A program made the translations under genes and the position numbers. From contig JADZFR010000050.1 in NCBI GenBank assembly GCA_020849795.1, positions 62,001-126,000 of the forward strand: a stretch of 64,000 nucleotides of DNA, given 5' to 3'. How positions within the stretch are numbered: the stretch's first letter is position 1; the number at the start of each line of letters is the position of its first letter. Positions 25,210 to 28,370 of the stretch are shown here, piece by piece. This stretch comes from Planctomycetota bacterium (GTDB taxonomy: Bacteria > Planctomycetota > UBA8742 > UBA2392). The notes under the pieces are model-generated. The model searched no databases and was not told the origin of the DNA. It saw nothing but the letters and a program-made list of their open reading frames with translations.

Positions 25210-26214
25210 TCACTGCTCAGACCACTCGTTCTTGACGCGTTTGGCCTCAGACTCGGCATGGGTCGCGGCGCCCGTGCCCGCCTGGGACTTTGCAAAGGCG
25301 TTCAGCGAAGTGACGTACTGCTGCCAGTCGCCGAACTCCTGCTTGTCTTTCAGCTTCTGCAGGTCTTCCCACGCCTTGAGTTCTTTCTTTAGGTCCTTGT
25401 CTTTCTTCAGCCGCGCAATCTCGTCTTTCGCGTCATCCGAGAACTTGTGGCCGCGAAAGTCCTCGCGCTGCTTGTCCAGCGTTTTCATCACGAGGTCGTA
25501 GCGCTTGTCCGCGGTCCAGCCTTCGATTCTCTTGATGCGCGCTTCGGCAAAGAATTTCAGACGGTCCGCAACTACCTGCAGGTCAGCCTTTGTGTCGGCA
25601 TCCAGTTCAGTGGCCAGCAGCTTCTCTGCATCAGCCAGCACCTTTCCCCACTCTCGCTTTTGCAGGCCCCGCGCGACCTTTGCGGCGCTTTCGGTCACCG
25701 CGTGCCTGCCCAGGTTGGGGTACACGATCTTTGCCAGCTCGGTGTCAAGGGCGGGTTTGAAGTCGCCCGCGCCGTGGTAGGCGATCTTGCCCTCCACGTC
25801 GATCACGGCCGTCCGGAACCCGCTGTCGCCCTTGTATTTGAAGAACTCGTTCTTGTCGTCGTAGAAGCCGCCCATCGCGATCGGGAACGTAAGCTTGCGG
25901 TCGTGCGCAAGCTGGCGAACTTGCGGCAACTTCTCGAAGTCCAGGCGATGGATCGTGAAGATCATCAACCCGTTCTCGCCGTATTTTTCCCAGTACTTCT
26001 GCAGGTCGGGCAGCTTGGCGGCTGTGCCGTCGCGTGTGTGCCACTCGAAAATGACGATGACGTCGCCCCTGCAATCTTCCAGCGAACGCGCGAACTCGGG
26101 TGGGTTCACCAGCACGCCGCCGGCGCGGAACTTCGGGGCCTCGTCCCCCACCTTCAAGTCGCCCGCGACCAGGGGTGACGCCGCGATCAGCAATGCCATG
26201 AGCAGTACGCGCAT
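25210..26214 (-). CDS. Secreted thioredoxin-fold (redoxin) paralogue lacking the CxxC
   Basis: A 334-residue protein with a signal peptide (MRVLLMALLIAASPLVAGDL) and a GGAGG site. The thioredoxin-like domain (residues about 20-165) keeps the scaffold: DLKVGDEAPKFRAGG, DVIVIFEW and FRTAVIDVEGKIAYHG. The active-site position reads EWHTRDGTAAKLPDL, with no Cys, so disulfide chemistry is not supported. The C-terminal half is a Lys/Asp-rich helical domain with DKDLKKELKAWEDLQKLKD and a closing Asn/Ala/Phe helix shared with the next two genes. It is the most diverged of three tandem paralogues. A chaperone or binding role is possible. Confidence 0.75.
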   Translation of the reverse strand: MRVLLMALLIAASPLVAGDLKVGDEAPKFRAGGVLVNPPEFARSLEDCRGDVIVIFEWHTRDGTAAKLPDLQKYWEKYGENGLMIFTIHRLDFEKLPQVRQLAHDRKLTFPIAMGGFYDDKNEFFKYKGDSGFRTAVIDVEGKIAYHGAGDFKPALDTELAKIVYPNLGRHAVTESAAKVARGLQKREWGKVLADAEKLLATELDADTKADLQVVADRLKFFAEARIKRIEGWTADKRYDLVMKTLDKQREDFRGHKFSDDAKDEIARLKKDKDLKKELKAWEDLQKLKDKQEFGDWQQYVTSLNAFAKSQAGTGAATHAESEAKRVKNEWSEQ

Positions 26215-26263
26215 GGGTGGTCCTCCGAACCCAAGATACGCATTGCGCAGGCCGTGCCCAAAT

Positions 26264-26294
26264 GAAAACGACCCGGCGGTGCCGGGCCGTTTTC
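26264..26294 (-). terminator. Intrinsic terminator of the 26307 gene
   Basis: On the minus strand, GAAAACG and CCCGGC arms form an interrupted 13-bp stem around a 3-nt loop, with CGTTTTC at the 3' side. Confidence 0.7.
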
Positions 26295-26306
26295 AAATCA
26301 ATGGTC

Positions 26307-27302
26307 TTAACCTTCGTTGCTTTCCGACTGTTTGCGGGCCTCGTCTGCCGCCGCCGTGCCCTCATATTTCTTTGCAAACGCCACCAGATTCTTCTTCTTT
26401 GTGGCGCTGTCCTTGGCCTTCTCATTGGCGGCCACAGTCTTTTCGTATGCGTCCCAGGCCTTGAGTTCATCCTTGACGGCTTTGTCCTTCTTCAGCGCGT
26501 CCAGGTCTTCTTTGGCTTTTTCAGCGACTTCCATGCCTTTGAATGCTTTGCCCGTAAGCTCTTCAAGAATGCGTACGGCGACGTGGTAGTGGCGGATAGC
26601 CTTGGCATCCTCGACCTGCTTGAGCTTGGCATCAACCAGCGCGTTGACCTTGCCGATGATGTAGTCGGCATCAGCCGCTACTGCCTCATTGTCAACGTTC
26701 TTCTCTTTCTGCCTGATCGCCTCGTCGCGCGCGGCGGCGTAGTCGCCTGCGCTGTATGCGGTGGCGGCCTTTTCGAGGCCGGGCGCAACCTCGTTCTTGC
26801 CCAACCCGAGGTACTTGATCTTGGTGATTTCTTCAGCGACTACGCCCACGTAGCCGTGGTTGCCTTCCCAGATTACCGTGCCGTCTACCCCGATTACGTA
26901 GGCATACGGAATCGTGCCCACGCCAGGGAAGCCGCCCATGCTGCCCTCAATCACCTGCGGGAACGTGAGGCCCTTGCTGTTGTACAGTTTCTGGATCTCG
27001 GCCTCCGTGTGACCCTGGCGCTCGCACATGAACACGTGCAGGCCCTTGCCTTCGTACTTGTTCCAGAGCCCCTGCACCTCCGGCATGCTGGCGATGCACG
27101 GGCCGCACTTGACGCCCCACAGCTTCACGAGAATCACGTCGCCCTTGCAGTCGGCGAGGCTCGTCTTCCCGTCCTTGGGCGGGTTGATGAACTTGGTCGC
27201 GCTGAAATCCGGCGACTCTTTGCCCTGCAAGCTGCTTGTCTTCTGCGCAACCAACGCGCTCGCGAACACACACAACAGTACCGACCAAATCATTGCCCGC
27301 AT
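26307..27302 (-). CDS. Secreted TlpA-like thioredoxin-fold protein with CGPC active site
   Basis: A 331-residue protein with a signal peptide (MRAMIWSVLLCVFASALVAQ). The ATG at 27302 has GGAG 7 nt upstream and is preferred over the ATG two codons earlier. The redoxin domain contains SADFSATKFINPP-like and GDVILVKLWGVKCGPCIASM segments, where CGPC is the classic thioredoxin dithiol. TIPYAYVIGVDGTVIWEGNHG follows. A Lys/Ala-rich helical C-terminal domain (KKDKAVKDELKAWDAYEKTV) is shared with both flanking genes. Its CGPC aligns residue for residue with UGA-GPC in the upstream paralogue. An extracytoplasmic thiol-disulfide or peroxide-reductase role is inferred. Confidence 0.85.
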   Translation of the reverse strand: MRAMIWSVLLCVFASALVAQKTSSLQGKESPDFSATKFINPPKDGKTSLADCKGDVILVKLWGVKCGPCIASMPEVQGLWNKYEGKGLHVFMCERQGHTEAEIQKLYNSKGLTFPQVIEGSMGGFPGVGTIPYAYVIGVDGTVIWEGNHGYVGVVAEEITKIKYLGLGKNEVAPGLEKAATAYSAGDYAAARDEAIRQKEKNVDNEAVAADADYIIGKVNALVDAKLKQVEDAKAIRHYHVAVRILEELTGKAFKGMEVAEKAKEDLDALKKDKAVKDELKAWDAYEKTVAANEKAKDSATKKKNLVAFAKKYEGTAAADEARKQSESNEG

Positions 27303-27341
27303 TGCCATTCTCCCGTTCCCAGTAATCAGGGCGGTTAAATC

Positions 27342-27373
27342 AACCGGCCCGGCCATCAGCGGCCGGGCCGGTT
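27342..27373 (-). terminator. Intrinsic terminator of the selenoprotein candidate
   Basis: A perfect 13-bp stem AACCGGCCCGGCC / GGCCGGGCCGGTT with a 6-nt loop is followed on the minus strand by GATTTAA. Confidence 0.8.
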
Positions 27374-27386
27374 CCCGTTCCGCTGC

Positions 27387-28370
27387 TTATGCAATTGCTT
27401 CGGCCAGCTTTTTCGCCTCGTCGGCGGCGGCTGTGCCCTCGTACTTCTTGTAGAAGTCGTTCAGCGACTTCTTCTTCGCAGCGCTGTCCTTGGCCTTCTC
27501 ATTCGCAGCCAGGGTCTTTTCCAGCGCGTCCCATGCTGACAGTTCTTTCTTTACGTCCTTGTCTTTCTTCAGGTTCTTCAGGTCCTCGTCGGCTTTGTCG
27601 CCCGTTTCGGTGCCCTTGAAACCCTTTGCCAGCTTCTCAAGCGCCTTCACGGTTTCGTGGTAGCGCCGGGTTGTCTGTGTTGCGTCCGCCTTAGCCTGCA
27701 GGTCCTTTGCCACCTGTTCTACGCGACCGATGATGAAATCCGCGTCTGCAACTACAGCCTCGTCGTCAGCCTTCTTCTCTTTCAGCTTGCTCGCCTCATC
27801 ACGGGCCTTGGCGTACTCGCCTGTGCTGAAAAGGGTGGCAGCCTTCTCAAGCCCCGGGGCTACATCCAGCTTGCCCAAGCCCGGGTACTTGATGCGGGCC
27901 AACTGCTTCTCAATCACTGCTTCGTAGCCACTGCGACCTTCCCATACCACCTTGGCGTCCGGGCCGATCACAAACCCGTACGGCAAGCCGCTCCAGCCCT
28001 CGCGATACCCGCCGAAGTCTGAGCCGGTGAACGGGCAGGGCACGTTGCAGCCCTTATCCTTGAGGAACTTCTCCACTTCTTCGCGCGGGTGTCCCTGCGC
28101 ATAGACGATGAAGATATGAAGTCCCTTTTCCTTGTTCTCCGTGTAGAGCCGGTTGAGTGAAGGCAACGCCTTCACGCAGGGCCCTCAGTTGATTCCCCAG
28201 AACTTGATCAACACCACGTCGCCTTTGCACTGCTCAAACGTGGTTGCTTCCGGCGCGTTGATGCAGTCCTTGGCGTCAAAACCTGGCGCGTCTTTGCCCG
28301 AAAGCGTCTGGGCAAACACCGCCGGCGCAAACGCCAACGCAATCAAGAGAGCCAATACGCTCGTCTTCAT
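27387..28370 (-). CDS. Candidate selenoprotein: secreted TlpA-like thioredoxin-fold protein with U-G-P-C active site
   Basis: Read through one in-frame TGA (28185-28187, codon 62), this is a 327-residue protein with a signal peptide (MKTSVLALLIALAFAPAVFA) and a GAGGAG site before the ATG. The sequence before the TGA ends DVVLIKFWGIN and the same frame continues GPCVKALPSL. The paralogue 85 bp downstream reads VILVKLWGVKCGPCIASMPE, so the TGA falls exactly on the first active-site Cys. Both sides are full-length and conserved, including the DKDVKKELSAWDALEKTLAA C-terminal domain. A SECIS-like hairpin starts 9 nt after the TGA. I infer selenocysteine insertion; a Cys-to-stop mutation is the alternative. 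No sel genes or tRNA-Sec lie in this window. Confidence 0.75.
28146..28187 (-). promoter_or_regulatory. Candidate bacterial SECIS element with its UGA
   Basis: Starting 9 nt after the UGA, GUGAAGG pairs perfectly with CCUUCAC around the loop CGUUG (28157-28175). Outside this, GGGCC just after the UGA can pair with GGCUC (28146-28150), leaving an internal loop. The apical loop begins 16 nt after the UGA and has G as its second base. This meets published bacterial SECIS criteria as I recall them: a small loop with an early G, 16-37 nt from the UGA. The layout resembles E. coli fdhF. Confidence 0.65.

Follow-up and report, generated by a model that had tools for sequence, protein, structure and literature searches.

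A predicted SECIS hairpin after the in-frame UGA of a thioredoxin-like selenoprotein gene in a planctomycete

A hairpin located in the coding sequence of a planctomycete thioredoxin-like gene is, as we predict from its sequence with high confidence, a bacterial SECIS element belonging to a UGPC selenoprotein of the TlpA/ResA type, and it very probably directs the insertion of selenocysteine (Sec) by the ribosome at the UGA preceding it. The element is of a known kind, of which the hairpin is a new and well-supported case, and it spans a large family of related genes. The features under discussion lie on the minus strand of the window (the whole 64,000-nt stretch of DNA that was analysed) and are as follows.

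28185..28187, minus strand: in-frame UGA (Sec62) occupying the first Cys position of the CxxC motif, a single TGA with a matching position in 83 homologues.
28157..28175, minus strand: predicted SECIS hairpin, stem GUGAAGG(C)/(G)CCUUCAC, from folding, synonymous shuffles, the bSECIS model and homologue comparison.
28146..28184, minus strand: proposed lower helix, GGGCC (28184-28180) with GGCUC (28150-28146), from folding; not conserved.
27387..28370, minus strand: predicted selenoprotein gene (327 aa, U62), with the UGA read as Sec, from domain and fold matches; ATG start.
26307..27356, minus strand: tandem Cys paralogue (CGPC), with no equivalent hairpin.
25210..26214, minus strand: third tandem paralogue, both active-site residues lost (EWHTRDGT), from sequence comparison.

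The hairpin and the gene that carries it

The minus strand reads UGA-GGGCCCUGC-GUGAAGG-CGUUG-CCUUCAC, in which two arms (28175-28169 and 28163-28157) form a perfect stem of 7 bp beginning 9 nt after the UGA and closed by the apical loop CGUUG (28168-28164, including G28167 and U28166), which is 16 nt from the UGA and has G as its second base. This stem, loop and spacing are present as the first-pass annotation had described them. RNAfold adds one C-G pair, giving a stem of 8 bp and a GUU loop 17 nt from the UGA, and the folding z-scores of the hairpin ranged from -1.84 to -4.57, varying with the stretch chosen for folding. The lower GGGCC/GGCUC helix that had been proposed alongside the hairpin does exist in the window gene, as five pairs, but it is not conserved, being paired in 52% of cells among 18 homologues and broken in a sister gene that shares 98% protein identity; by these comparisons it is probably incidental.

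The predicted selenoprotein has a signal-peptide-like N-terminus, a TlpA/ResA-like thioredoxin domain with the active site U-G-P-C, and a C-terminal helical domain, and its ATG is preceded by GAGGAG. The redoxin/AhpC-TSA domain PF08534 was matched at 41.7 bits (cut-off 26.6), and the fold is nearest to that of ResA; in the model the active-site helix begins at U62. A thioredoxin fold with Sec in place of a Cys of CxxC, together with the existence of Cys homologues, including a CGPC paralogue within the window, identifies the protein as a TlpA/ResA-like (redoxin) UxxC selenoprotein. The C-terminal helical domain (residues 172-324 of P0001, window positions 27398-27857) resembles NF041382, the VPGUxxT selenoprotein family; the active-site domains of the two differ, and the match is limited to the C-terminal domain at 63.6 bits, against a cut-off of 350 for whole-length membership.

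The window gene is the first of three tandem paralogues occupying 25210-28370, with UGPC (Sec), CGPC (Cys) and EWHTRDGT (active-site residues lost) in turn, and this UGPC/CGPC/residue-less arrangement recurs in several related genomes. Other tandem partners of Sec genes (L076, L078 and L081) have a single Cys (CTGS, CTTS) replacing CxxC.

Selection on RNA structure among homologues

Taken alone the hairpin is weak evidence, as it is only mildly unusual in a GC-rich window: an equally stable hairpin with G in its loop lies within 16-37 nt of 44 of the 1,951 TGA triplets in the window (2.3%). The mere presence of a hairpin was rejected as evidence on this account, and total folding energy was rejected as a discriminator, with the Cys paralogue being as stable over 51 nt as the Sec gene (-23.5 vs. 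-23.2 kcal/mol). The best G-loop hairpin of the Cys paralogue is 27 nt away and has a 9-nt loop, which bears out the earlier statement that this gene has no hairpin equivalent to that of the Sec gene. A search of Rfam gave no SECIS match. Because such hairpins arise by chance and the Cys paralogue folds as stably overall, the weight of the hairpin has to come from comparison.

We searched 60 genomes, comprising that of the window and its relatives, and found homologues in 54 of them. These yielded 112 distinct active-site regions, of which 83 have TGA, 15 have Cys and 14 have neither; the TGA is exactly at the first CxxC position in all 83. Local folding of nucleotides 10-34 after the codon was compared with that of 400 synonymous-codon shuffles, and the window gene folded significantly better than its shuffles (p = 0.002). 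Among the UGA homologues the mean z was -2.32, with p<=0.05 in 53 of 83, vs. a mean z of 0.03 and p<=0.05 in 0 of 29 for the non-UGA homologues. The consensus bSECIS model (PMC13188914, Fig. 2) specifies an apical loop of 3-9 nt with the pattern N1-G-U-N-N2 (N1:N2 paired), a spacing of 16-37 nt from UGA to loop, an upper stem of 4-16 bp and an energy of <= -7.5 kcal/mol. The window hairpin falls within these ranges, with 8 bp, -11.0 kcal/mol and a spacing of 16 nt (to CGUUG) or 17 nt (to GUU). The model was passed by 49 of the 83 UGA homologues (2.9 expected from synonymous shuffles), compared with 1 of 15 Cys homologues (0.9 expected) and 1 of 14 homologues with neither (0.2 expected). Most loops of the passing homologues are AGUU (25) or GUU (14), nearly all 16-17 nt from the UGA. 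Leucine at +7 is encoded by UUG in 49 of the 53 UGA genes having Leu there, against a background of 9.8% elsewhere in these genes. RNA structure is thus under selection across the homologues that keep the UGA, as is expected of a bacterial SECIS element. The remaining 34 UGA homologues fail the strict model, and no hairpin fitting it was found in two other TGA genes of the same genome, those for SelD (L186) and a Prx-like protein (L181); the element is therefore not uniform, and we rejected the possibility of one hairpin common to all selenoproteins of the genome.

In the KALP subfamily, to which the window gene belongs, GUGAAGGCGUUGCCUUC is invariant in 18 distinct sequences, silent sites included. 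This core is 17 nt long, the silent sites of its flanking codons vary freely, and the codons CCU for Pro (8% background) and UUG for Leu (10%) are fixed within it. Such invariance of silent sites is strong evidence in itself; because the core stem never varies, covariation is unobservable inside this subfamily. Covariation, which had been proposed as a check on the hairpin, is strong in the UGA-keeping sister subfamilies xQLP/xQLRR (28 distinct sequences), where 97% of stem cells are paired and 20 cells are compensatory vs. 4.3 in shuffles (0 of 500 shuffles as high), counts that overstate the evidence since related sequences are not independent. The signal is lost in slid registers. In all 30 genes compared, codon +5 is the exact reverse complement of codon +8, the pairs being CGG/CCG, ACG/CGU, GCG/CGC, UGG/CCA and GGG/CCC, and a tree from which the hairpin columns were left out requires at least five changes of the codon pair; in the sister genes L091 and L093, for instance, one base pair has been exchanged between G-C and A-U. 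These five codon-pair changes and the silent-site data are independent of sequence count.

The corresponding amino-acid changes in the xQLP/xQLRR subfamilies are likewise linked (R...P, T...R, A...R, W...P and G...P). Thioredoxins usually have proline five residues beyond the second Cys of the active site. In a UPPC branch (L091, L092, L093, L094, L098, L102, L107 and L109) this proline is replaced by Arg, and codon +5 (Thr or Ala) stays the reverse complement of the Arg codon, so that hairpin and protein change together. We tentatively suggest, while holding the opposite to be somewhat the likelier, that in these branches the SECIS hairpin shaped the protein, with the need for pairing between +5 and +8 leading to the linked amino-acid changes. 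If so, RNA signal and redox domain would co-evolve within one 30-nt stretch.

Selenocysteine decoding and alternative readings

The genome (3.97 Mb, 94% complete), whose nearest named relatives are Planctomycetota metagenome assemblies, encodes a tRNA-Sec with the anticodon UCA, an adjoining SelA (275 bits vs. a cut-off of 267.9, from the C-terminal half only, as contained in the fetched piece), SelB, and SelD, the gene of which itself has a TGA. The Sec machinery that a bacterial SECIS element requires is therefore present in the same genome. Among the matches listed, UGA homologues occur in 29 of 33 genomes with SelB over the cut-off vs. 2 of 7 without (Fisher p = 0.003), and the two SelB-less genomes that have them are incomplete assemblies (86% and 83%). 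Besides the TGA-containing SelD on C3, the window's genome (G000) has about eleven genes of the redoxin/AhpC type that each contain one in-frame TGA (on C5, C6, C7, C10, C14, C23, C44 and C50, and three on C25), and on these predicted genes it is selenoprotein-rich.

By analogy with established bacterial Sec decoding, SelB with GTP and Sec-tRNA(Sec) would bind the GU(U) apical loop of the hairpin just 3' of the in-frame UGA, and Sec would be delivered at the UGA in place of termination. The product would be an oxidoreductase of the TlpA/ResA type that has UGPC as its active site and is either secreted or located in the periplasm.

It is very unlikely that the hairpin has no function and arises simply because the gene encodes the conserved peptide GPCVKALPS in a GC-rich genome. 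The core peptide is indeed conserved, and the 2.3% of window TGA triplets with an equally stable G-loop hairpin in range show how readily such structures form; however, an equally good fold is hardly ever reached when the peptide is kept and its codons are shuffled (for the window gene, p = 0.002), bSECIS passes stand at 49 against 2.9 expected, UUG and CCU never change although both are rare codons, and +5 covaries with +8 even where the encoded residues differ. Shuffling and covariation together refute this reading, and they support the earlier view of the hairpin as RNA-level support for Sec insertion, which folding energies no better than those of shuffled sequences were to have refuted.

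The least probable alternative is that the locus is a pseudogene or two genes, with a UGA that either is a genuine stop or results from a sequencing error or frameshift. Calling open reading frames with Table 11 does split the gene (28544-28185 and 28175-27387), yet the reading frame and protein similarity run on across the UGA without a shift, and 83 genes from many genera share this single TGA at their catalytic position. A changed genetic code, with UGA read as Cys or Trp and the hairpin serving something else, such as translational pausing, would agree with the Cys found at this position in the paralogues. Several other window genes end with TGA, however, and UGA is therefore not reassigned; the UCA-anticodon tRNA is, moreover, called as tRNA-Sec and the genome has the complete sel set, leaving this reading highly improbable as well.

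Comparison with known systems

The first-pass annotation had likened the hairpin to that of E. coli fdhF, and the parallel holds for the layout: both lie just after the UGA in the coding region and have G-U in the apical loop. It does not extend to the bulged U in the stem of fdhF, which the window hairpin lacks, nor to the lower helix, which is not conserved in the window family. The loop is also about 2 nt nearer the UGA than that of fdhF, and the sequences differ.

With the bSECIS model (PMC13188914) the hairpin shares the apical loop size, the stem, the N1-G-U-N-N2 pattern (as C-GUU-G), the spacing and the energy; it violates no part of the model, and its 16-nt spacing is the lower limit allowed. 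The 83 homologues, in which the stem shows compensation and takes two registers about a single GUU loop, constitute a good natural data set on the requirements of SelB in a bacterial SECIS. Annotations will miss these genes, since standard gene callers divide or shorten them at the UGA. The papers found in the literature searched give no description of planctomycete selenoproteins.

Table 1 of PMC13188914 lists a Redoxin family selenoprotein with UxxC (PF08534) and a thiol-disulfide isomerase-like selenoprotein (cd02966). The window protein shares with these the PF08534/PF00578 match and Sec as the first residue of UxxC. The planctomycete family, of which a single genome has about eleven selenocysteine redoxins, is more interesting for this expansion and for the way in which amino-acid changes are coupled to RNA pairing. 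Unlike the listed selenoproteins, the window protein has at its C-terminus an additional helical domain of ~150 aa, also present in NF041382, and each planctomycete genome has many paralogues of the family, both tandem and dispersed.
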